From: Thermodesulfobacterium sp. TA1
GTDB lineage: Bacteria > Desulfobacterota > Thermodesulfobacteria > Thermodesulfobacteriales > Thermodesulfobacteriaceae
Length of the DNA: 64,000 bases
Direction: 5' to 3'
Assembly (NCBI RefSeq): GCF_008630935.1
Contig: NZ_CP043908.1
Coordinates: 1,488,001-1,552,000, forward strand
The position numbers were made by a program, and so were the translations under genes. The notes below the pieces were generated by a model. It worked only from the letters and a program-made list of their open reading frames with translations. It did not search any database and had not been told where the DNA came from. Shown piece by piece: positions 13,479 to 33,430 of the stretch (positions are counted from its first letter, which is position 1; each line of letters begins with the position of its first letter).

Positions 13479-14087
13479 ATGAAAAGTAAGGGTTTTACTT
13501 TGGTAGAATTAGCGATTGTGTTGGTTATTATTGGTATCATCTTAGGGGCAGTGCTTAAGGGACAAGAATTGATATATAATGCTAAAGTAAAGAGGGTTCA
13601 AAGCCAAATAAAAGAATTCGCTGCAGCTTTTTATACCTACTATGATAAATATGGTTATTACCCTGGAGATGACCCAACTGCTTCTAATAAATGGTCAGGG
13701 GCTCCTAACGGAAACGGAGATGGATTGGTAGCTGGAGGATATTGTGACAATGCTGGTGAAGAATCTTGTTATATTTGGAGGCATCTAAGATATGCTAATA
13801 TAATAAGTGGAGATCCTAATGAATCAACTCCTGCTAACCTTCTTCCTAAGCATATCTTTGGAGGATCGATCGATATGTTTACCGGTACTTATACTATCGG
13901 TGGTCAAACAAGGTCAGGATTATGGCTTACCCTTAGAAACATAGAAGCTCAAGCCGCAGAAGCTATTGACCGAGCTATGGATGATGGTAAATGCACAACC
14001 GGTTCTATAGCTCGTTATGCAGGAACATCTTGCAATGGTAATAATTATCCTTCTTCTGGATATTTAGACATATGGCTAAACTTATAA
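13479..14087 (+). CDS. type IV-pilin-like protein, probable major pilin of MSHA-type pilus
   Basis: The prepilin leader MKSKG is followed by FTLVELAIVLVIIGI: cleavage after G5 would expose F6 as the methylated residue with Glu at +5, the standard type IV pilin signature. The hydrophobic helix is followed by a globular domain with two cysteine pairs, for a total of 202 residues. It is the first gene of an 11-gene pilus operon and is separated from the next gene by a hairpin that could leave it the most abundant product. No prepilin peptidase is encoded in the window, so processing depends on an enzyme from elsewhere. Confidence 0.85.
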   Translation: MKSKGFTLVELAIVLVIIGIILGAVLKGQELIYNAKVKRVQSQIKEFAAAFYTYYDKYGYYPGDDPTASNKWSGAPNGNGDGLVAGGYCDNAGEESCYIWRHLRYANIISGDPNESTPANLLPKHIFGGSIDMFTGTYTIGGQTRSGLWLTLRNIEAQAAEAIDRAMDDGKCTTGSIARYAGTSCNGNNYPSSGYLDIWLNL

Positions 14088-14103
14088 ACTAAACGTTAAA
14101 TCT

Positions 14104-14123
14104 CTCCCCTTTAAAGGGGGAGG
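14104..14123 (+). promoter_or_regulatory. hairpin between the two pilin genes, attenuator-like, overlapping a ribosome binding site
   Basis: CTCCCC (104-109 of this kilobase block, 14104-14109) pairs with GGGGGAG (14116-14122) around a TTTAAA loop, and TTTAATTTT follows. This could partly terminate transcription after the first pilin. The 3' arm GGGGGAGG is also the only ribosome-binding sequence upstream of the ATG at 14136, so folding would also hide it. Both effects would lower expression of the lectin pilin relative to the first pilin. Confidence 0.45.
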
Positions 14124-14135
14124 TTTAATTTTAAC

Positions 14136-15917
14136 ATGAAGAATTTTGAAAAGAAATTTTCTAAAGGTTTTACCCTCATAGAAATAGCTATCGTGTTAGT
14201 TATTTTGGGTTTACTTATAGGTTTAGGGGCAAGCTTAGTAGGTGTACTTACCCAGAGAGCAAAAATCACAGAGGCCAGAGAAGTTGTTAATGCGGCGGTT
14301 GAATCCTTAATAGGTTTTGCCACCCAAACAAACAGACTTCCCACTCTGTTAGAATTTTCAAGAACTATAAGAAATCCAAATGATCCATGGAATAAGCCTC
14401 TAAATTACTTTGTTGATCCTTCTTTAACCTCTAACCCAAACCATCCAGCAGAAGGAATATGCGGTAAAAAAACTACCAATCTAATAGTTTGTACAGACAC
14501 TAATTGCAATTTTCAAATTCCTAATGTAGCTTTTATTGTCGTAAGTGGTGGTCCTAACTATAATATCCAAACAGGAAATTTAACCAATCCTCCCTGTCCT
14601 ACAGGGAAGACATGTTATAGAGTTTATCCTCAAGGGACTCAAAATATAGATGATTATCCATATGATTTTACCAGACCCGAAGAGTATGATGATATAGTAA
14701 AATGGGTAACCTTAGAAGAATTAAGAATTAAAATGGGGTGTCAAGGAGCCCAACTTAAAATTCTAAACAATGAACTCCCTTATGGTTATGTGAATACTAT
14801 CTATAATGCTATAATTTATGCAGAAGGTGGGGTACCTTTTACCAACGGAAATGGAAAGTATAAATGGTGTGTAGAAGTAAACGGAACTCTACCAGGAATA
14901 AACTTAACCCCCACCGCTACCTCAAACAATTGTACGGCTTTACCTGAAAATTCTTGGGGACAGGCAGACTTTCTCACTTTAACCGGTACTCCTAACCAAA
15001 GTGGTAGTTTTTATTTAAGTATTTTTGTAAGAGACGATCAAGACCAATCAGGTAACAACGACAATATAGCTCAAAAAACCCTTATACTTACGATAAATCC
15101 TCAAACATCTTCTAATTCCACGGGTACGATAGGAGCTCAAATATCCTTTGCCGACAACATAAACCAATTTCAAGAAAATGAAAATAATCCCTCTGCGGTT
15201 CAAGTTATCGGAAATACTTTGTTATTAGGAGGGAACACAGGAAATACATATGGATGTTTTTGGTTCCCTTCTTCTTACACCTTAAACGGTAAAAAACTGA
15301 GAGCTTATTTTAAGTTTAAGTTTCTTACAGTTGATACCTCTCCTTATTCTACAGGTTATGCAGATGGTTTTACTTTCGCGGTAGTTGATGGCAATATGCC
15401 AACTAATGTCTGTGGAAGTGCTGGAGAAGGGCTTGGATTTTTAGGTTTAAATTATGACTCTATAGCCGTAGAATTTGATGTTTATCCAAACTCAGGAAGA
15501 AATGATCCTATAAATTACAACCATGTAGCTATCGTGAAAAGAGGGACGGTTACTCATAATACTTATACCTTAATGGGAGATAATCCAAGTTGTACGTCTA
15601 ATGGATGTTATAGAACCAATGTTACAACCTGGTTAGAAGATGGAATTGAACATACGGCAAGAGTTGAAATACATACAGGGTGTAATCCATCTTGTAATAA
15701 CTGCGGAAATAATCCTCAAAACTATGCTCTTTTAAAGGCCTGGATTGACTGTAGTAACTGTAATGATTTAACCCAAGACTATGCCTCAAACCCTACGATT
15801 CAACACTGTTTTCAATTACCTCAAACAATGTCTTCTGTTAAGTTTGGTTTTACTGAAGCAACCGGAGGTAGAAATCAAAATATTGAAATCAAAGATTTTG
15901 GAATAGGTTTTTATTGA
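14136..15917 (+). CDS. pilin-like protein carrying a C-terminal L-type lectin domain
   Basis: A 593-residue fusion. The prepilin leader is cleaved at G11/F12 (GFTLIEIAIVLVI, Glu at +5). Residues 45-200 form a pilin-like globular part and 210-322 look like an Ig-like (putative He_PIG-type) domain. Residues 330-593 resemble a legume/L-type lectin: YADGFTFAV (D410), VEFDVYPN (E446, D448, N452) and NHVAIV (N462, H463) match the carbohydrate- and calcium-binding positions of that fold. Many cysteine pairs suggest extracellular disulfides. It probably sits at the pilus tip as a sugar-binding adhesin; that role is inference. Confidence 0.8.
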   Translation: MKNFEKKFSKGFTLIEIAIVLVILGLLIGLGASLVGVLTQRAKITEAREVVNAAVESLIGFATQTNRLPTLLEFSRTIRNPNDPWNKPLNYFVDPSLTSNPNHPAEGICGKKTTNLIVCTDTNCNFQIPNVAFIVVSGGPNYNIQTGNLTNPPCPTGKTCYRVYPQGTQNIDDYPYDFTRPEEYDDIVKWVTLEELRIKMGCQGAQLKILNNELPYGYVNTIYNAIIYAEGGVPFTNGNGKYKWCVEVNGTLPGINLTPTATSNNCTALPENSWGQADFLTLTGTPNQSGSFYLSIFVRDDQDQSGNNDNIAQKTLILTINPQTSSNSTGTIGAQISFADNINQFQENENNPSAVQVIGNTLLLGGNTGNTYGCFWFPSSYTLNGKKLRAYFKFKFLTVDTSPYSTGYADGFTFAVVDGNMPTNVCGSAGEGLGFLGLNYDSIAVEFDVYPNSGRNDPINYNHVAIVKRGTVTHNTYTLMGDNPSCTSNGCYRTNVTTWLEDGIEHTARVEIHTGCNPSCNNCGNNPQNYALLKAWIDCSNCNDLTQDYASNPTIQHCFQLPQTMSSVKFGFTEATGGRNQNIEIKDFGIGFY

Positions 15918-15924
15918 AAATTAT

Positions 15925-17565
15925 ATGGAAAGAAAACCTATAGGACAACTTCTTAAAGAAAGAGGGTTTATCACAGAAGATTATATTCAATTTGCTTTAC
16001 TTGAACAAAAAGCCACTGGAGAAAAGTTAGGAGAGGTTTTAGTAAGGATTGGACTGGTAACTGACCTGGAAATTGCCATCGCTCTTGCCGAACAAAGTGG
16101 ATTACCTTTTGTAGATCTTTCTCAACTTTCTCCTTCTAAGGATGCCTTAAATTTAATCCCTCCTTCTTTTGCAAGAAAACATAAAGTTTTACCTATAAGA
16201 TTAAAACAAGACAGGACTCTTGAATTAGCTATATCGGATCCATTTAACTTTCAACTGATTGAGGCAGCTTCAAGGGTTTCAGGGTTAAAAATCACACCTG
16301 TAATAGCTTCTTCTCTGCAGATAAACAAAGCTATAGAAAAATTCTATTATTTTTTAGAAAACCCTATTGAGGATCAAATTAATACTATCGTTGAAAGATT
16401 AAAAATTAACCCTCAAGCAGACTTTAACGCTGAAGAACTTTTAGAAAAAATTCTAATTTTAAGCATCATCAGACGAGCTACAGACCTCCATATTACCCCT
16501 ACCGAAAAAAGCGTTCAAATCTATCTAAGGATAGATGGAGTACTTGAACCTTTAATAGTTTTTCCCAGGACTGTATATGGGAAATTAGTCAATGTGGTTA
16601 AAATAAAAGGACAGATGGATATAGCAGAATCAAGACTTCCTCAAGACGGTAGGATGCAATTTTCTTTTTTAGGAGAAAGCTTTGACTTAAGACTTTCAAG
16701 CGTAAGAACTCCTTTTGGAGAAAACTTGGTTTTAAGGTTTTTACCTTCAGGGGCCTATGCTCAGCATCTTTTTTATTTAGGGTTTTCCTCTGAGCAAATT
16801 GAGCTTATCCACAAGATAATGGCTTCTCCTTATGGAATGTTTTTAGTTACTGGTCCTACAGGTTCTGGGAAAACTACTACTTTGTTTGCTTGTCTCAGGA
16901 CTTTAAATCTTCTTGAAAAAAACGTTCTTACTGCAGAGGACCCTATAGAATATAGTTTACCTTTGGTAAGACAAACTCAAGTTCATGAGGAAATCGGTTA
17001 TACCTTTGCAAAAGCTATAAGACATTTTCTACGCCAAGACCCAGATGTAATTTTAGTTGGAGAAATAAGGGACGAAGAAACCGTTCAAATGGCGATCAGA
17101 GCTGCCCTTACCGGACATCTTTTCCTCTCTACCTTACACACCAACAACGCCATTTCAACTATCTTTCGTCTAAAAGACCTAAGAATTTCTTCAGAAATGA
17201 TAGCTTCTACTTTGGTAGGTCTTTTAGCGCAAAGATTGGTAAGAAAAATTTGTCCTTACTGTAGAGAAGAATATCAACCAGATCCTACTTTATTAAATTA
17301 CTATGAATTACCTGAAGATATACCCTATTATAGAGGTAAAGGTTGTGAGGCCTGCAGATTTAAAGGCTATCTTGGAAGGACTGTAATTTCAGAGATCATT
17401 TACATAGATAAAGATTTTATAAAACTTCTCTCTAAAGACGCTTCCTTACCAGAATTTTTAGATCTTATGAAAAATAAAAACATACCCTCTTTAAAAGAAG
17501 ATGCTAAACTTAAAGTTTTAAACGGTTTAACCACGGTTGAAGAAATAAAAAGAGTAGTAGGATAA
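15925..17565 (+). CDS. mshE: pilus assembly ATPase, MshE/PilB/GspE family
   Basis: This hexameric ATPase powers pilin polymerisation at the inner membrane. The first 150 residues form the GspE/MshE N-terminal domain. The motor follows, with Walker A GPTGSGKTT (about residue 310), AEDPIEY (Asp box), Walker B ILVGEIRDEE and the His box STLHTN. A four-cysteine zinc site (CPYC ... CEAC) closes the ATPase domain, as in PilB and GspE. Length is 546 residues. It follows the lectin pilin by 7 bases and its stop overlaps the next start (TAATG). The mshE name rests on the operon context. Confidence 0.9.
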   Translation: MERKPIGQLLKERGFITEDYIQFALLEQKATGEKLGEVLVRIGLVTDLEIAIALAEQSGLPFVDLSQLSPSKDALNLIPPSFARKHKVLPIRLKQDRTLELAISDPFNFQLIEAASRVSGLKITPVIASSLQINKAIEKFYYFLENPIEDQINTIVERLKINPQADFNAEELLEKILILSIIRRATDLHITPTEKSVQIYLRIDGVLEPLIVFPRTVYGKLVNVVKIKGQMDIAESRLPQDGRMQFSFLGESFDLRLSSVRTPFGENLVLRFLPSGAYAQHLFYLGFSSEQIELIHKIMASPYGMFLVTGPTGSGKTTTLFACLRTLNLLEKNVLTAEDPIEYSLPLVRQTQVHEEIGYTFAKAIRHFLRQDPDVILVGEIRDEETVQMAIRAALTGHLFLSTLHTNNAISTIFRLKDLRISSEMIASTLVGLLAQRLVRKICPYCREEYQPDPTLLNYYELPEDIPYYRGKGCEACRFKGYLGRTVISEIIYIDKDFIKLLSKDASLPEFLDLMKNKNIPSLKEDAKLKVLNGLTTVEEIKRVVG

Positions 17566-18764
17566 TGCCTATTTACCGATATAAAGCTTTAAACAAAGAA
17601 GGCTTAATAGTAAAAGGAGAGATAGAGCTTTCAAACTTAGAAGAGTTTTTTAACTATCTATATCAGGAAGGACTTATCCCCTTAAAATACAAAACTTCTT
17701 CTTTATCTTTGAAATTTTTGTTTAAAAAGGTAAAAAGAAAAGATTTAGCAGATTTTTGTCACAACTTAGCTTTTTTGCTTTCTGCAGGGGTGCCACTACT
17801 TTCAGCTTTAAAGGATCTATATGAAACCGTAAATAATCCTATTTTAAAAAGAAAAATAGCTCAAATCATAGCAGAAATATTAAGAGGAACTCCTATATCA
17901 GAAGCGTTTAAACAAACTCAAATATTCCCTCCTGTAGTGATTTTTCTGATAAAAATAGGTGAAGAAACAGGAAGAATCGATAAAACCTTAGAAGATGCCT
18001 CCAAACATCTTTACCGTATAGACGAAATTGTCTCTCAAACGAAAAGGGCTATGATGTATCCTATCTTTGTTTTATTTTCTATTTCAACAGCTTTTCTCTT
18101 TTGGATGCTTTACGTCTTACCCAAGATTTTAGATGTTTTTAAACAAATGCACATTACCTTACCTCTTCCTACTCTTATTTTGATGAAAATAGTAGATGTT
18201 TTTCAAAAACATTATGTTTTGATATTTTCTGTTTCGTTGATTGTAATCCTATTTCTATTAATACTTTATAAACATCAAAAAACACAGCATAAAATAGAGA
18301 AGATCTTATTAAAACTTCCTTTTATAGGTTTTGTAAAAAGGTCAAGTTTTCTTGCCTTCTTTTTTGAATATTTTTCATTACTTTTAGAAGCCGGTGTAGA
18401 TATTTTAAGAAGTTTTGATTTAATGTATAGTTCCTTAAATACCCAACTTACTAAAAAAATTATTTTAAATATAAAAGAAAAAATAACAGAAGGTATAACT
18501 CTAAGTGATGCTTTAAAAGAAGAAAAAATTTTCAACTCTTTTGATATAAGGTTAATCAACGTGGGAGAAAAAACTGGAAAACTTAACGAACAAATGAAAC
18601 TACTTTCAAACTATTATTTTAATGAGGTGCAAAACCTAATCCAAACCATTAGTAAAATACTTGAACCTCTTATTATCGCTATAGCCGGTATGATTTTTTT
18701 AATCATAATTATAGCTCTTATTGGACCAATATATGAACTTATTTCTCAAATTGGCAAAATGTAA
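17565..18764 (+). CDS. mshG: pilus inner-membrane platform protein, MshG/PilC/GspF family
   Basis: A polytopic platform protein that couples the ATPase to pilin insertion. Two GspF repeats are visible: residues 62-185 (FCHNLAFLLSAGVPLLSAL) and 265-390 (FFEYFSLLLEAGVDILRSF). Each ends in hydrophobic helices. The 399-residue length is normal. The start overlaps the ATPase stop by one base (TAATG), so the two are translationally coupled. Confidence 0.9.
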   Translation: MPIYRYKALNKEGLIVKGEIELSNLEEFFNYLYQEGLIPLKYKTSSLSLKFLFKKVKRKDLADFCHNLAFLLSAGVPLLSALKDLYETVNNPILKRKIAQIIAEILRGTPISEAFKQTQIFPPVVIFLIKIGEETGRIDKTLEDASKHLYRIDEIVSQTKRAMMYPIFVLFSISTAFLFWMLYVLPKILDVFKQMHITLPLPTLILMKIVDVFQKHYVLIFSVSLIVILFLLILYKHQKTQHKIEKILLKLPFIGFVKRSSFLAFFFEYFSLLLEAGVDILRSFDLMYSSLNTQLTKKIILNIKEKITEGITLSDALKEEKIFNSFDIRLINVGEKTGKLNEQMKLLSNYYFNEVQNLIQTISKILEPLIIAIAGMIFLIIIIALIGPIYELISQIGKM

Positions 18765-18768
18765 AAAT

Positions 18769-18942
18769 ATGATAATAATCTTAATATTAGCTCTTTTTTT
18801 AATAGGTTTAGGTTATTTCTTTCTTATTAGTATTGACCCTAATATAACTTATGAAAGATTGATCTTTGAGGTTAGAACTGCTCAGATTTCTATTATAGTA
18901 GGAAGTTTTTTATTATTACTTTACCTTTACAGAAGATTATAA
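18769..18942 (+). CDS. small membrane protein of the pilus operon
   Basis: A 57-residue protein with two membrane helices joined by a short charged loop. The reading frame is open from 18721, inside the platform-protein gene, but the ATG at 18769, just after that gene's stop, is the likelier start. The next gene begins 1 base after its stop. The position resembles that of small accessory genes in MSHA loci; I do not recognise the family. Its tight packing between operon genes argues that it is real. Confidence 0.6.
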   Translation: MIIILILALFLIGLGYFFLISIDPNITYERLIFEVRTAQISIIVGSFLLLLYLYRRL

Positions 18943-18943
18943 A

Positions 18944-19840
18944 ATGAACCTTTGGAACTCTCAAGAAAAACAAATTTTTGATTACTTAAATTTTTTTGGA
19001 TTAAAAGAACCACCTTTTTCCCTTACCCCTGACCCAAACTATTTTTTTCCTTCTTCAACCCATATCAAGGTGATAGAGGTTTTAAAATATGGTTTTTTAA
19101 AGAAAGAAGGATTTATGGTGCTAACCGGAGAACCAGGGCTTGGAAAAACTTTACTTATTAAACTACTTTTAAATCTTTTACCAGAAAGTTATTACACACT
19201 TTTTCTTCTTACTCCTACTCTTTCTCCCAATGAACTCATAATAACTATTTCTCAAAAATTAAAGTTTATCTCGGAAAAAGAAAATCCCCCTTCTAAAGAA
19301 ACACTTTTAAACCTTTTACAAAAATATTTGGAACAGTTAGAAAAGGAGAATAAAACCTTACTTATCATAATAGACGAAGCTCAAAATCTTCCTATAGAAA
19401 CTTTAGAAGAATTGAGGCTTTTAAGCAATTTTGAAACTGAAAGGAACAAATTAATCCAGTTTTTTTTGGTAGGACAACCTCTATTAACCACTAAATTAAA
19501 AAACTACCGACTATATCAATTATCTCAAAGAATTACCATATGGGAAAACATAACACCATTTAACCAAGAAGAGACAGCTGAATATGTTAGATTTCGTTTG
19601 TTTAAGGCAGGATATCCTGTGATATCTTTTGAAAGAGGTTTTGAAAAACTGTTATACAAATTTACACAAGGTATCCCAAGGCTTATCAATAAGCTTATGG
19701 ACAGAACTTTATTAGTAGCTTATGCTGAGAAGTCTCAAAAAATTAAGAAAAAACATCTTAAAACTGCCAAAAGATCTTTTCCCGATGAAGTTTTTCCGTT
19801 AAAATCTAACAAAAATTGGCTAAAATTTTGGAAAAGATGA
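18944..19840 (+). CDS. mshM: ExeA/MshM-like AAA ATPase
   Basis: An AAA+ ATPase of the ExeA/GspA group, which in MSHA and type II systems helps place the secretin in the cell envelope. Walker A GEPGLGKT lies near residue 66, Walker B LLIIIDEAQNL near 145, and a sensor segment follows. The family's opening FGLKEPPFSLTPDPNYFF is present. Unlike ExeA of Aeromonas it has no C-terminal membrane helix or peptidoglycan-binding domain; the 298-residue length fits MshM. Its stop overlaps the next start (ATGA). Confidence 0.87.
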   Translation: MNLWNSQEKQIFDYLNFFGLKEPPFSLTPDPNYFFPSSTHIKVIEVLKYGFLKKEGFMVLTGEPGLGKTLLIKLLLNLLPESYYTLFLLTPTLSPNELIITISQKLKFISEKENPPSKETLLNLLQKYLEQLEKENKTLLIIIDEAQNLPIETLEELRLLSNFETERNKLIQFFLVGQPLLTTKLKNYRLYQLSQRITIWENITPFNQEETAEYVRFRLFKAGYPVISFERGFEKLLYKFTQGIPRLINKLMDRTLLVAYAEKSQKIKKKHLKTAKRSFPDEVFPLKSNKNWLKFWKR

Positions 19841-21156
19841 TAAAAAAAGAATCTGTCTGGATAATAAAACCTTTAAAAGAAGACTTTTTTGAAGGTTTCA
19901 AGTTTGATAGACAATTTAAAAAATTTGAGTTCTTACCTAAAATAGAACTTTCTCAAATCAAAAAACAAAAAGTTTATCTTATCTTAGAACCTCAAATATT
20001 TTTTGCAGACTATATAGAAATCCCTGGGAAAATTTCAGAATTTATCAAAGTCCAAGCGGAAAACCGAGTAAAAGAAAGTGGAATTTTCCTCAGTCCTCCT
20101 AAAACGATTTATAAAGTTACTGAAACCCTTGAGATGAGCTCAAAAGTTTTTGTTTTTGGTATAGAAGAAAAATTGATTAATAATTACTTAGAAAAATTAA
20201 GAAATGTCCAAGCAAGAGTAGAAATAATAACCCATAAAATACTCTCTATTTTTTGTTGGTTCCAAAAACAACTTTATTCAGAAAGTATCAGTTTACCTGT
20301 ATTACTCGTTATTTTAGATCCAAACGAAGTTTGGTATTTAGTAGTTTATCAAAAAGCCCCACTTTACATAAAATTCTCTGTATTAGATGAATTTATCGGA
20401 ATTTCTACTCAAATTATTTCAGAAAACATTTTATCGTTAAAAGACTATGTATATAAATTTTTCCAAGAGGACATAAAGGGGCTGTTTTTCTTAGGTAAAG
20501 AACGAAACAAAATAAATCAAGAAGAAATTGCTGAAAAAACTAAACTTTCTTTAATAGACTTAAACCTAAAAACCTTTGAAGAAGCTTATTCTTATCCTGA
20601 AATTTTTGGAGCTATAACTTTAGACCAAAATTTTAATTTTCTACCCAACTTAGAAAAACTATTTTTGACTCAAATAAATTGGATTGAAAAATTGACCCCT
20701 GTTATTTTAGGATTAACCGGGATTAACATTTTGTTATGTTTATATTTTTATAAAATAAACTCCGATTTAGAAAAAAAGATAGAAGCTGAAATTCTAAATA
20801 CTAATAAAGTCATTAGTGAAATCGCTTATAAAATACCAGAATCTTCTCTTCCTAAAATCAAAACCTATCTTTCTTTAGAAAAAGAAAAAACAACCAGTTT
20901 AAAATTAGATGAGTTTTTATTATGGCTCTCCCAAATATGGAATGAAAATTTAATTTTAAAAAATCTTAAAGTAGATAAAAATAACAAAATTTTTATTGAA
21001 GTTGAAATAAAAGGAGATATGATAACTACACAAAAAAGAACAGATGAACTAATCAATCACTTTAAAAAACATTTTAAAATAGAAAAAAGTAACTTACATT
21101 TTTTTGGTAGAGAAAATAAAGGTATTCTAAACTTAGAAGCAGATTTAATAAGATGA
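19837..21156 (+). CDS. MshI/PilM-PilN-like pilus assembly protein
   Basis: A 439-residue bitopic protein. Residues 1-285 are cytoplasmic and resemble PilM/MshI actin-fold proteins in position and length, with weak sequence signal. One membrane helix (about 290-312) leads into a periplasmic coiled-coil and a PilN-like domain. It would thus combine the PilM and PilN functions of the alignment complex. An upstream Met at 19816 is possible, but the ATG at 19837 overlaps the previous stop as ATGA and is preferred. The assignment rests mainly on gene order and topology. Confidence 0.65.
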   Translation: MIKKESVWIIKPLKEDFFEGFKFDRQFKKFEFLPKIELSQIKKQKVYLILEPQIFFADYIEIPGKISEFIKVQAENRVKESGIFLSPPKTIYKVTETLEMSSKVFVFGIEEKLINNYLEKLRNVQARVEIITHKILSIFCWFQKQLYSESISLPVLLVILDPNEVWYLVVYQKAPLYIKFSVLDEFIGISTQIISENILSLKDYVYKFFQEDIKGLFFLGKERNKINQEEIAEKTKLSLIDLNLKTFEEAYSYPEIFGAITLDQNFNFLPNLEKLFLTQINWIEKLTPVILGLTGINILLCLYFYKINSDLEKKIEAEILNTNKVISEIAYKIPESSLPKIKTYLSLEKEKTTSLKLDEFLLWLSQIWNENLILKNLKVDKNNKIFIEVEIKGDMITTQKRTDELINHFKKHFKIEKSNLHFFGRENKGILNLEADLIR

Positions 21157-21590
21157 GAAAACTTGTAAAAATTTATCAAAAACAGTTAGTTTCCTGGTAC
21201 ATTATTTTACTGGTTTTTGCATTTTCTTTATCTTTTTTAAGCTATACCTTTCTAAAGCTATTCAACAATCAAAAAAGATACGATGCTCTTATAGAAAGCA
21301 AACAAATCTTAATTTCACAAGTTCAAAACATTTATCTTGGGATGGTTAAGATTAATACAGAAAAAATCATAGAGCAACAAATAATACCGGTTAACATAGT
21401 TTTTGAAATAAACGATCTTAATTCTGTGCTTTATAATATTTCTTCTTTATATTCTCACAAAGGAAGTTTTTTTAGATTAAACGAAGCTATAATCTCTCCC
21501 TGCGAAAAAAATTATAATACAACGTTAGGGACCGATTGCCTTTATATAATGACCATTTCTGGAGAAAGGGTAAAATACCTTTTAGATTGA
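21153..21590 (+). CDS. PilO/MshJ-like bitopic pilus assembly protein
   Basis: A 145-residue protein with one N-terminal membrane helix (about residues 15-36), a short coiled coil and a small periplasmic domain with two cysteines. Size, topology and position directly after the PilM/N-like gene fit PilO or MshJ, part of the inner-membrane alignment complex. The ATG overlaps the preceding stop (ATGA). Sequence similarity alone would not identify it. Confidence 0.6.
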   Translation: MRKLVKIYQKQLVSWYIILLVFAFSLSFLSYTFLKLFNNQKRYDALIESKQILISQVQNIYLGMVKINTEKIIEQQIIPVNIVFEINDLNSVLYNISSLYSHKGSFFRLNEAIISPCEKNYNTTLGTDCLYIMTISGERVKYLLD

Positions 21591-21594
21591 AACC

Positions 21595-22074
21595 ATGAAA
21601 GAAAACTATAAAATATACCTAATATTTTGGGGTCCTTGCTTCTTGTTAATAGTTCTTACTTGTTTTTCGTTTTTTCTTATCAAACAAAAAGTCTTTTCTA
21701 CCCCTTTTTACGTAATTAACCTATCTTCAAGCTATATAGAAATCATCAACGAAATTAATGCCTTGAATTATTTAAAACCTTTTCAGCTTATAGAAAAAAC
21801 TGCGGTAAATAAAGACCTTTTTGTAAACGCCAAAAAAACTGAACCTTCCAAAGAAAAAACCCTTTTAACCACAATTAAACCCTATATGTTAAATTTAAGC
21901 ATGATTTATATAGAAGGAAATAAGAAAAAATGTATAATAAACGATAAATATTTTACAGAAGGAAGTAATTTAACTCAAGATATAAAAATAGTAAAAATAG
22001 GTGATTATTATGTGGACCTACAAATTAAGGGCGAGATTAAAAGGCTTTTTTTGGGACAAACTATTAGTTTTTAG
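21595..22074 (+). CDS. MshK/PilP/GspC-like periplasmic linker protein
   Basis: A 159-residue protein with an N-terminal membrane helix (about 8-28), a low-complexity linker and a small C-terminal beta domain (residues 95-159). That domain's pattern of INDKYFTEG and KIGDYYVDLQ resembles the PilP/GspC homology region that contacts the secretin. Its 3' end overlaps the secretin gene by 65 bases, implying coupling. The assignment follows order and topology. Confidence 0.65.
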   Translation: MKENYKIYLIFWGPCFLLIVLTCFSFFLIKQKVFSTPFYVINLSSSYIEIINEINALNYLKPFQLIEKTAVNKDLFVNAKKTEPSKEKTLLTTIKPYMLNLSMIYIEGNKKKCIINDKYFTEGSNLTQDIKIVKIGDYYVDLQIKGEIKRLFLGQTISF

Positions 22075-23605
22075 TATTATTTTTTTAGTAAGCTGTGCGG
22101 GAAAAGAACCTGAGATAGAAAAAAGTTCTTCTAAATTTTTACAAACCTTTTATGCTAATGAAACTTTAAAAGAGAGTTCTACTTCAAACTCTTCTAATAC
22201 TAAACAAACAACATATAGTCTCCCTAAGCTATCCCCTATTTATACAGAGGTTTCTCCTCTTGAAAACAAAATACTTACTCTTTCTTTTAAAGATGAAAGC
22301 TTTGAAAATGTGCTTTATTTTCTTGCTAAAGAAGCTGGGCTTAATTTAATCATTTCTCCTGAGGTTTATCAAAATGTTCCTCAAGAATTTAGGAAAATCA
22401 GCTTTCAGTTTAAAAAACAACCTTTAAAAAACATTTTAGAGGCTATTTTGGAATCCTTAGACCTCCATTATCAAATCAAAAAAGGGGTACTTTACGTGGT
22501 GCCGTTTGAAGAAAAAGTCTTTTCTTTAAGTTTTTTACATGTAGTCCAAGAAAGTGATTTTAATTTAGGAGGTGATGTCCTTGGAGGAGCAACCAATTTA
22601 GGAAGTTCTACAGGTAGTTCTAGTGGCAGTTCTTCTGCATCTATCGGAGGCTCCTCTCTAAAAGGTAAATATGAAATAAAAGGACAAATTGACAAAAAAC
22701 AGATAGACATCTATAACCAAATAGAAAGTTCTTTAAAGGATCTTATAAGCGAAAACGGAGTCTATACATTAAACAGACTTACAGGTACTTTATATGTAAA
22801 AGATAGGCCAAGTCATATAAAAGCGATTTATAATTTTATAAATGATATAAAATCAAAATATAAAAATCAGGTAATTATTGAAGCAAAAATTGTAGAAGTA
22901 GTATTAAACAAAGAGCATAATTTGGGTATAGATTGGATAGAAATTTCAAATTTCCCCTTAGGCAAAAATTCAGTAAGGTTTAACGAAGTTACTTCTCGTT
23001 TTAGCACTAAAACTAATGAACCCAGCCTTTCTCTTACGATTACAGGAAGCCCTAACATTAATTTGATTTTAAACTTGTTAAAACAATATGGAAACATCAA
23101 TCTACTTTCTAATCCTCGTTTAAGAGTTATCCATGGACAACCTGCTTTGATAAGCGTAGGTAAATCTGTAGAGTTCGTAAAGGAGATTACCAGAAATTTA
23201 GTTTCTTCCCAACAAACCGCCCAGGTTCAAACCAATATAACCACTTCGGCTATTTTTGAAGGAGTAATGTTAGCTGTCACACCTTATCTTACAGAAGAAA
23301 AAGAAATTTTGCTTCACATAGTACCTATTAAAAGTGATATCCTCTCTTTAAAAAGAGAGGATTTTGGGCAAGATACCTCAATAACCCTCCCTGAGGTTAA
23401 CTTGAGAGAAGCTACTTCTATTATAAAAGTAAACCCTGGTGATATAATAGTTTTAGGTGGACTTATCCTTGAAAAAGAAATTAATAATGAAAAAAAACTT
23501 GTAGGAGTAGGAGACATACCTATATTGGGGAATATTTTTAAAACTAACCAAAAATCTAAACAAAAAACAGAGCTGGTAATTATTATAAAGGTAGACATAG
23601 TTTAA
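22010..23605 (+). CDS. mshL: outer-membrane secretin, MshL/PilQ family
   Basis: The secretin forms the outer-membrane pore of the pilus. The N-terminus is a lipoprotein signal with lipobox LVSC followed by AGKEP. Next comes an STN/N0-type domain (about residues 75-170), then a Gly/Ser-rich linker near 190-215, an N1-type domain, and the secretin channel (about 330-530) ending in the conserved VPILGNIFK and ELVIIIKVDIV. A GTG at 22001 is in frame, but the ATG at 22010 lies 6 bases after AGGTG and is preferred, giving 531 residues. The N-terminus overlaps the preceding gene. Confidence 0.9.
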   Translation: MWTYKLRARLKGFFWDKLLVFSIIFLVSCAGKEPEIEKSSSKFLQTFYANETLKESSTSNSSNTKQTTYSLPKLSPIYTEVSPLENKILTLSFKDESFENVLYFLAKEAGLNLIISPEVYQNVPQEFRKISFQFKKQPLKNILEAILESLDLHYQIKKGVLYVVPFEEKVFSLSFLHVVQESDFNLGGDVLGGATNLGSSTGSSSGSSSASIGGSSLKGKYEIKGQIDKKQIDIYNQIESSLKDLISENGVYTLNRLTGTLYVKDRPSHIKAIYNFINDIKSKYKNQVIIEAKIVEVVLNKEHNLGIDWIEISNFPLGKNSVRFNEVTSRFSTKTNEPSLSLTITGSPNINLILNLLKQYGNINLLSNPRLRVIHGQPALISVGKSVEFVKEITRNLVSSQQTAQVQTNITTSAIFEGVMLAVTPYLTEEKEILLHIVPIKSDILSLKREDFGQDTSITLPEVNLREATSIIKVNPGDIIVLGGLILEKEINNEKKLVGVGDIPILGNIFKTNQKSKQKTELVIIIKVDIV

Positions 23606-23608
23606 ACT

Positions 23609-24376
23609 ATGAGTAATTTTTACGAAATCATAAAAAAATTAAAGACTTCTAACCCTCAAAAAAGCAACCTTCAGGGAAAAAAACTTAAAATAAAGCTCTT
23701 ATTTTTTCTTATCATAACTTTTGTCTCTGGAATAGGTATAACCCTTTTTAGTTACTATATCAAAAGTTTTGTTAAAAAATCTACTGAAAAATCTACCCTA
23801 AATAAACCTATTTCTAATTTAGTTCAAAACTATACACAAACTGTGCATAATCAAACAAATTCCTCTTCCCCATCCCCCTCTTTATCTAAAAAAATTCCTG
23901 AAAAAACTCTCTCCTCTCCCCTAAAGATTAAAACCAAACTTTCTTACCCTGCTATCTCTCCTTCTAAATTACCTCAAACATCTTCTCAACCACAGGTTAT
24001 AGAAGGATTTCTCTTAACCCAAGGAGATTTATTAAACAATCTTCTTGTTTTGGCTGAAGAAGAAAGAAAAAAAGGAAATTATCAAATGGCTATTGTTTAT
24101 TATGAAAATTATTTAAAAGAAAAGGAAGATCCGTTAGTAATGAACAATTTAGGTGGTTGCTTAACTGAAATCGGAGCCGTTGAAGAGGCCATAAAAGTCT
24201 TTCATAAAGCACTTTCTTTAAAAAACGACCCAATTATTCGTTATAATCTAATTATAGCTTATCTAAAAAAGGGAGATAAAGAAAAGGCTTGTTCTGAAAT
24301 AAAAAAAATAAAACCTCCCCTTACATTACCTCCACAAATAACCCATCTTGAAGAACTTTGTAAAAGCCTTAACTAA
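23609..24376 (+). CDS. MshN-like TPR protein of the pilus operon
   Basis: A 255-residue membrane-anchored protein. One membrane helix (about residues 29-51) is followed by a Ser/Pro/Lys-rich linker to residue 130. The C-terminal domain has at least two TPR repeats (LAEEERKKGNYQMAIVYYENYL and the following MNNLGGCLTEIGAVEEAIKVFHKAL). MshN in MSHA loci has the same layout and lies next to mshL. Last gene of the pilus operon. Confidence 0.75.
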   Translation: MSNFYEIIKKLKTSNPQKSNLQGKKLKIKLLFFLIITFVSGIGITLFSYYIKSFVKKSTEKSTLNKPISNLVQNYTQTVHNQTNSSSPSPSLSKKIPEKTLSSPLKIKTKLSYPAISPSKLPQTSSQPQVIEGFLLTQGDLLNNLLVLAEEERKKGNYQMAIVYYENYLKEKEDPLVMNNLGGCLTEIGAVEEAIKVFHKALSLKNDPIIRYNLIIAYLKKGDKEKACSEIKKIKPPLTLPPQITHLEELCKSLN

Positions 24377-32345: not shown

Positions 32346-33430
32346 TAGTGTCTCATTAATTGTGTAAAGCCTTGAGGGAAAGGGAAGGGTATGGTAGCTT
32401 CCCCAATGCATAATAACCAAAACTACCAGAAAGGAGGGGAAGCTACCGTGAAAAAAAAACTAAAACTTTAACAAAACAACCTATAGAAGGGATTCTAAAC
32501 TTTTTTCAGCAAGAAGTCAACAATCTTATTAAAAACCTTTTAGAAAACCTTATGCTTGAAGAAAGAAGGATTTATTTAGAAGAGCAAGAAGACTATGCAA
32601 ACGGTTTTTATACCAGAGATTTACTTTTCGTGCCTTCCTACTTCCTGAAAGAAGGAGGGCTGAAAAGCATTTCCCGGTTAATAAAGGTGACTGAAGATGA
32701 AGTTAAAAAACTTATTTATCTATTCGTCGAAATGAGGTAGCAAAGGAGCCAGTATATTTAGCTTTAGGGATAAAGCCTGATGGGAGAAGAGAGATACTTG
32801 GATTTTGGATATTTGGGTATGCCAGGGAGAGTGCCAAGAATTGGGAAAACCTTTAAGAGAGTTAAATCGGCGTGGGGTAAAGAAAGTTCAACTTTTTATT
32901 ACGGATGATTTGCCTGGGATAGAAAATGCCATAAAGATGGTTTATCCAGCTTCGGAATGGCAACTTTGTGTATTACATACTGTAAGGAATTCTTTAAATA
33001 AGGTGCGGGCAAAAGATAGAGGTTTATTTGCAGAAGATTTAAAAAGGATATATAGAGCAGAAACAGAAGAAAGAGTTAAGGAGGGGATATTAAGATTAAG
33101 GGAAAGATGGGGTAAGATATATCCTAAGGTAGTGAAGAAATGGGAGGATAAAGCGTATGCATTATTAACCTTTTTGAGGTATCCGAGAGAGATAAGGCAG
33201 TTTATTTATACAACTAATCAGGTTGAGAGGTTAGCGAAAGAGATAAAAAGGAGGATAAAGGTAATAGAAGTATTTCCGGATGAAGGCTCTGTTGAGAGGT
33301 TGTTATATTTAATCTTGAAAGAACTGAGTGAGAGGTTAAACTCAAGGAAGTTAAGAGGGTTTAATGAAATTGAATTGGGGAACTACCATGCCTTTCCCGG
33401 AAAAATTTTTACACAATAAAAGGGACACTA
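32346..33430 (+). mobile_element. IS256-family insertion sequence, inactive (copy B)
   Basis: The longest of three related copies, 1085 bases. The left end TAGTGTCTCATTAATTGTGT and the inverted right end (TAGTGTCCCTTTTATTGTGT on the other strand) form imperfect terminal repeats. A 12-base-pair hairpin (GGTAGCTTCCCC at 32393-32404 with GGGGAAGCTACC at 32436-32447) lies just before the transposase start and would hide its ribosome binding site, as in many IS elements. GGAGATA at 32337-32343 and 33434-33440 may be the target duplication, though offset by 2-3 bases from the ends. Confidence 0.88.
32448..33419 (+). pseudogene. IS256-family (mutator-type) transposase, frameshifted and internally deleted
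   Basis: Translation from the GTG at 32448 stops after seven codons because of a length change in an A-run. The original frame resumes around 32461 (KTLTKQPIEGIL) and runs to 32740. After a deletion that removes the first catalytic Asp, the sequence continues in pieces (ALGIKPDGRREILGFWI, then 32805-33419). The last piece, 204 residues, keeps the second Asp region (FITDDLPGIENAIKMVYP), the WQLCVLHTVRNSL motif and the distal Glu region (YTTNQVERL). Intact family members have about 400 residues. Confidence 0.88.

Follow-up and report, generated by a model that had tools for sequence, protein, structure and literature searches.

An L-type lectin tip on a modular pilin of a compact MSHA-like locus in Thermodesulfobacterium, and the apparent exchange of tips and pilin pairs among its relatives

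Introduction

Can a pilus be aimed at a surface by a lectin borne on one of its own pilins, and is such a lectin a fixed part of the pilus or one of several exchangeable parts? The question is raised by a locus in Thermodesulfobacterium sp. TA1 (GCF_008630935.1, contig NZ_CP043908.1, positions 1,488,001-1,552,000, forward strand). This stretch of 64,000 nucleotides is referred to below as the window, and positions are counted from its first letter. Genomes compared carry G-numbers, with G000 the window genome, and their loci carry L-numbers. A sequence-only reading of the window had taken the organism for a probable thermophile, which is supported by a full-length reverse gyrase encoded in the genome (1207 bits), and had singled out one pilin-like protein as a sugar-binding adhesin. 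That protein is here called the modular pilin.

Domain structure of the modular pilin

The gene is present in a single copy in the finished 1.83-Mb genome, and its parts are as follows.

14136..15917, + strand: modular pilin, an ORF of 593 aa with an ATG start
14136..14168, + strand: prepilin leader, residues 1-11 (sequence and N_methyl match)
14169..14744, + strand: pilin body, residues 12-203 (AF2 helix 14-65; invariant columns)
14745..15101, + strand: Ig-like (He_PIG) stalk, residues 204-322 (match of the G008 homolog to He_PIG; model matches)
15111..15914, + strand: L-type lectin tip, residues 326-593, with a short linker at its start (PF18483, PDB 7elv, hhalign)
15363..15365, + strand: D410 in the ADG loop, the predicted sugar-binding Asp (present in 15 of 16 aligned domains)
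15471..15524, + strand: predicted metal-site segment E446-H463, with E446, D448, Y450, N452, D457 and H463 (alignments)
15681..15761, + strand: Cys-rich loop and WxDCxxC, with C516, C520, C523, C539 and C542 (subfamily conservation)

The leader, MKNFEKKFSKG, is followed by FTLIE, with cleavage expected after G11, so that E16 becomes E5 of the mature protein. All the marks of a type IV pilin are present (G-1, a hydrophobic residue at +1, E+5, and the hydrophobic stretch), and the N-terminus scores above cut-off with both Pfam N_methyl (E 7.7e-6; 25.7 bits, cut-off 21.2) and TIGR02532 (23.5 bits, cut-off 16.3). AF2 run with 7 sequences gives a long helix at residues 14-65 and then a beta head with strands to ~192, at a pLDDT of mostly 65-91 across residues 11-100; near the end of the body, homologs share the motif RxEEYDDIVKWVTLxEL. 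He_PIG matches the stalk of the G008 homolog (E 8.8e-7), and the AF2 model of residues 203-325, of moderate confidence, has middling similarity to Ig-like sandwiches (best Z 7.4). The prepilin signature, pilin-like part and Ig-like part proposed from the sequence are thus borne out. Matches of the full model in VIA-align were filled by Ig-like domains, which crowded out the pilin and lectin parts, and Foldseek with the full model returned no match below E 0.001.

The L-type lectin tip

A scan with the full-length protein missed the lectin domain, and a scan with the isolated domain recovered a match to PF18483 (Lectin_L-type_dom) at E 8.8e-11; its 42.5 bits do not reach the gathering score, 78.3. 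Two homologous domains match the same model at E 2e-10 and 7e-12. A profile of four homologs finds PDB 7elv, described as a legume lectin, at E 2.4e-10, and plant legume lectins from E 1e-4. Aligned by hhalign to three bona fide PF18483-type domains, the domain reaches 98.4% across 190 aligned columns (query 29-259 of 268), so that almost all of it is covered, with the GFTxxTGG loop close to the C-terminus included. Homology to lectins is backed by these three independent comparisons. AF2 models of this part have low confidence: pLDDT is 33 for the domain alone from a single sequence, and below 50 for the lectin part of the modular pilin when seven sequences are used, too low to speak for or against a jelly-roll fold.

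The canonical set in concanavalin A is E8, D10, Y12, N14, D19 and H24. Its register presumably places the equivalents here at E446, D448, Y450, N452, D457 and H463, to which D410 of the ADG loop is added as the sugar-binding Asp. These seven residues are invariant in the five lectin-tipped homologs (G000, G001, G007, G008 and G143) and hardly vary in ten domains that are more distant, so the domain may be expected to bind both metal and sugar. The residues named in the sequence-only reading (D410, E446, D448, N452, N462 and H463) all lie where it put them. As a full set its list falls short, since Y450 and D457 were omitted, and N462 should be struck from it: that position is not a canonical ligand in the concanavalin A register and varies among relatives, being N, D or a gap. 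A WxDCxxC motif marks the subfamily and is present in most members; the Cys-rich loop is found in G001, G007 and G143. Among the aligned domains, that of a relative in G136 is a lectin-like tip without the metal and sugar residues, which suggests that the lectin fold can persist without its metal site. In the same G136 protein (L049:1027-2631), E5 is replaced by N.

The C-terminal L-type lectin domain of the earlier description thus appears well founded, and sequence comparison gives good support for a pilin that carries an L-type lectin domain within an MSHA-like locus. The protein has the extra C-terminal domain of non-pilin origin that marks modular pilins, and tip-less natural forms that end at the Ig domain are found at L010 and L027.

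A compact MSHA-like locus with two pilins

Ten + strand genes at 13479-24376 encode, in order, the partner pilin, the modular pilin, and proteins of MshE, G, M, I, J, K, L and N types. The remaining features of the locus are these.

13479..14087, + strand: 202-aa partner pilin, probably the major one (leader MKSKG followed by FTLVE; N_methyl E 2.9e-7)
14088..14135, + strand: RNA hairpin between the partner and modular pilin genes (folding, terminator scan, sequence)
15925..17565, + strand: MshE-like extension ATPase with N-terminal MshEN and its c-di-GMP-binding motif (T2SSE E 1.4e-110; MshEN E 9.3e-23)
17565..18764, + strand: MshG-like inner-membrane platform (T2SSF E 4.5e-46)
18944..19840, + strand: MshM-like AAA ATPase (AAA_22 E 1.2e-25)
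19816..21156, + strand: MshI-like (position and synteny; no match to family models)
21153..21590, + strand: MshJ-like (position; no match to family models)
21595..22074, + strand: MshK-like (position; no match to family models)
22001..23605, + strand: MshL-like secretin (Secretin E 1.2e-31; TIGR02519 244.9 bits, just below the cut-off of 250.2)
23609..24376, + strand: MshN-like TPR protein (TPR matches)

The MshE-like ATPase also exceeds the cut-offs of PF05157 (80.5 bits against 23.1) and NF053729 (55.5 bits against 38), and TIGR02519 is the best-scoring secretin model for the MshL-like protein. Gene order taken from the ORFs agrees with the earlier placing of the modular pilin gene as second in the operon. 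The same reading called the operon a complete MSHA-type one, which holds as far as MshE, G, M, L and N can be recognised. It is overstated in that I, J and K are named from their position only and the locus holds just two pilins, with no counterparts of the MSHA minor pilins MshB/C/D/O/P or of MshQ seen within it. We therefore regard it, on gene content, as a compact MSHA-like system with two pilins only. The other five N_methyl matches lie elsewhere in the genome, where a separate set of pilins and minor pilins is found at 512 and 1456 kb, and PilT-type ATPases and a prepilin peptidase are likewise encoded outside the locus. At the second of these places, L077:8137-11934 (G000:C1, ~1456-1460 kb), is a minor-pilin cluster with a 627-aa PilX_N-like protein that has a large uncharacterised C-terminal part; PilY1 does not directly adjoin it. 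A search of the genome for PilY1 gave no hit, and neither did its control. Within the window, the MshE gene contains an inverted repeat (17161-17236; 21-nt arms, 86%), and an ORF at 32805-33419 resembles, judged by eye, a fragment of a mutator (IS256) type transposase.

The hairpin between the two pilin genes has an MFE of -19.3 kcal/mol (z -4.25; 0 of 200 shuffles as good), with a terminator-like core at 14103-14123 and a T-rich tail. The only good candidate ribosome-binding site of the modular pilin, GGGGGAGG, lies in its 3' arm. In all, four genomes have a hairpin behind the partner-pilin gene; those of G001, G007 and G003 (z -5.6, -5.1 and -3.2) occupy the same place and are equally strong, with unrelated sequences. 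None is apparent in the relatives compared where the gap between the pilin genes is 5-15 nt. By attenuation or protection, the hairpin may hold the modular pilin at a low level while that of the partner pilin stays high.

Conserved core and variable tips

Among 60 relatives, 35 match the modular pilin, and most matches end near residue 200, 235 or 330. The core (~residues 1-325) is common to Thermodesulfobacteriota and has relatives in Aquificota; outside the phylum it occurs on contigs titled Aquificaceae, Persephonella and Helicobacteraceae. Of the relatives examined, only G000, G001, G007, G008 and G143 have the lectin tip, with the metal-less version in G136. G143 belongs to another family of the phylum, and its modular pilin is 59% identical to that of the window. 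Elsewhere the core bears small unrelated tips, often with cysteines, which fall into the sets L006/L007/L008/L031, L009/L012/L013 and L018/L019/L022; a Pfam scan of the small tips of L007, L008, L009, L012 and L013 gave no match. In L030 the stalk is lengthened, with up to four He_PIG matches. The conserved core thus carries several interchangeable tips, of which the lectin is one, a point that the sequence-only reading missed. No silent tip copies or further lectin copies were found in the genome, no homologs were found among viral contigs, and plasmid records gave no match.

In other genomes of the phylum, L-type-like domains on PilX/MshP-like N-termini were found at L040, L042 and L048; the joining of a pilin-like protein to an L-type lectin thus recurs. 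Fusions of this kind are also seen at L050 and L051, and in G307 two stand in tandem near MshE/MshG-like genes.

Pilin pair and assembly machinery

Of 14 congeneric genomes, 7 have both the core gene and an MshL secretin of this type, and the other 7 have neither. With independent placement, a perfect match of this kind would be expected in 1 of 3432 draws, kinship ignored. The partner pilin also co-varies with the modular pilin among genomes. The degree of similarity, given here as the identity of each protein to its counterpart in the window genome, follows a different course. In G007 machinery and pilins are alike close (MshE 83, MshG 74, MshM 76, partner pilin 81, modular pilin 71%). In G005 the machinery is just as close (MshE 82, MshG 72, MshM 79%) but the partner pilin falls to 52% and the modular pilin to 41%, the latter lacking the Ig domain and ending in another tip. 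The reverse is seen in G143, where MshE (55%) and MshG (39%) are distant and yet the modular pilin is 59% identical, and in G008, where MshG is at 47% and the partner pilin at 75%. Among congeners whose machinery is equally similar (70-83%), the pilin pair is thus found in one of two states, conserved (71-81%) or replaced (41-52%). It is also relocated in some genomes, lying inverted downstream of MshN in G005 and G010 and on another contig in G003. In a tree of pilin bodies, three of the four lectin-tipped congeners (G000, G001 and G007) join G143 with a support of 99, and the pilins of G003, G005 and G010 are placed elsewhere; its deep nodes are weak.

This discordance suggests that the pilin pair evolves as a separately exchanged cassette, and exchange of a two-gene cassette would be its simplest reading. 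Surface proteins evolve quickly, and fast divergence under selection might also leave pilins less similar than machinery while keeping each pair together, as is seen. We think this an unlikely explanation, given that pilin identities differ sharply between G005 and G007 when their machinery is equally close, that the Ig and lectin parts are missing outright rather than diverged in G003, G005 and G010, that the pair has moved in these same genomes, and that a closer pilin is found in G143, a member of another family. Returning to cassette exchange, a wider proposal may be put forward, for which we see slightly less than an even chance: in thermophilic Thermodesulfobacteriota and their relatives, MSHA-like pili would be aimed by a mobile cassette of two genes that passes from lineage to lineage without the assembly machine. 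It would consist of a major pilin and a modular tip pilin, the latter built on a universal adaptor core with interchangeable tips, true L-type lectins among them, and would parallel, between species, the shufflon of plasmid PilV.

Proposed function of the modular pilin

We consider it likely that the protein is a minor modular pilin of a compact MSHA-like type IV pilus, probably regulated by c-di-GMP, in which an Ig stalk presents a glycan-binding L-type lectin, most likely at the tip, and that its core is a universal adaptor carried in a cassette exchanged separately from the machinery. This is built on what the sequences themselves show: the set of domains, the conservation of the binding residues, the diversity of tips and the discordance between pilins and machinery. 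The pilin body would be processed and polymerised as in any pilin, so that the canonical N-terminus inserts the protein into the filament, probably at the tip or close to it. The Ig-like stalk would hold a calcium/manganese-type lectin away from the filament, where it could bind a glycan; candidates are a polysaccharide of (hot) biofilms, and an S-layer or outer-membrane sugar of neighbours. Once bound, the lectin would let the pilus attach and pull, with extension gated by c-di-GMP binding to MshE and retraction driven by PilT. On the same core, acting as a universal adaptor, relatives would bear their other tips. The tip location is suggested by analogy with PilC (PMC9934059), by the two-pilin locus, and by a hairpin that possibly sets a low dosage; sugar binding is likewise proposed by analogy.

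Alternatively, the lectin-like domain could be a structural or protein-binding module that binds no sugar, with the pilin serving as spacer or anchor. ConA-like folds often do other jobs, many LamG-type domains being structural or protein-binding, and the G136 relative keeps an identical layout with its metal and sugar residues gone. This seems improbable for the lectin of the window, as the full L-type metal and sugar set is kept in the five lectin-tipped homologs and most distant relatives, even while overall identity drops to about 25-45%. The modular pilin might also decorate the shaft. E5 is present, so there is no mark of an obligate cap, unlike GspK or Streptococcus sanguinis PilA, and with a canonical N-terminus capping is not forced by the sequence; insertion along the shaft is possible, and a survey of modular pilins allows a location in the filament body (PMC8179133). 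We give this only a small chance, given the ~390 residues of bulk past the pilin body, the position of the modular pilin as the sole other pilin of the locus, and the low dosage suggested by the hairpin behind the partner-pilin gene. That the protein belongs to a type II secretion pseudopilus appears very improbable indeed: its N-terminus does score with GspG and GspH models, though far below their cut-offs, but its neighbours include MshL-type and MshE-type (with MshEN) proteins and an MshM-like ATPase, and models of GspC, GspL and GspM match none of the ten operon proteins.

Comparison with known systems

Pilin-Ig-lectin subunits are already known. PilC of S. sanguinis is a minor modular pilin that binds glycans and has been modelled at the tip (PMC9934059), and the protein described here has the same parts in the same order: a class III signal peptide, a pilin moiety, an Ig-like module and a ConA-like lectin module. 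The PilC lectin is described as superposing on galectin-7 and is filed under SSF49899, whereas the present lectin is of the legume/L-type with conserved metal ligands, and it sits in a diderm MSHA-like system. Modular pilins are widespread (more than 1,200 proteins in 264 architectures, of which some include PF05345 He_PIG or domains of lectin type), and the protein resembles them in having Ig-like and carbohydrate-binding modules grafted on a pilin; in the part of the survey's text considered here, a PF18483-type lectin is not named among the architectures (PMC8179133). We found no report in the open-access literature of such a lectin on an MSHA-type pilin. With legume and L-type lectins (PF18483, PF00139, PDB 7elv, 2fmd, peanut lectin) the domain shares the ADG loop, AVEFDxYxN, DP, the H motif and the GFT-TG loop, and it differs from them in the Cys-rich insertion, WxDCxxC and the fusion to a pilin.

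The locus resembles that of Vibrio cholerae MSHA in its MshE with MshEN and its MshG, MshM, MshL and MshN types. It differs in having only two pilins, with the large modular one second, in its MshI/J/K assigned by position, and in lacking counterparts of the V. cholerae minor-pilin set. PilV of IncI plasmid pili has a constant N-terminal part of ~345 aa and C-terminal tips, exchanged by a shufflon, that act as adhesins (PMC9045228). The same division into constant N-terminal part and exchanged tips is seen here, but the tips vary between species rather than inside one cell, and a search of the locus for shufflon sfx-like or recombinase-type repeats found no direct repeats, only one unrelated inverted pair in the MshE gene. 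What is new, then, is a legume-type, metal-site-bearing lectin tip, its setting in an MSHA-like system of two pilins, and what appears to be an exchange of tips and pilin pairs between species.

Implications

These results connect a lectin of the classical metal-dependent type with a pilus, in a thermophilic lineage that branches deeply. The relatives supply a natural series of subunits, one base with varied tips, in which the effect of the tip on pilus specificity can be tested by domain swaps within a single laboratory system. Repeated exchange of a pilin pair over a constant machine would explain in a simple way how type IV pili are retargeted: through exchange of a small gene cassette, a pilus can probably be re-aimed at different surfaces.
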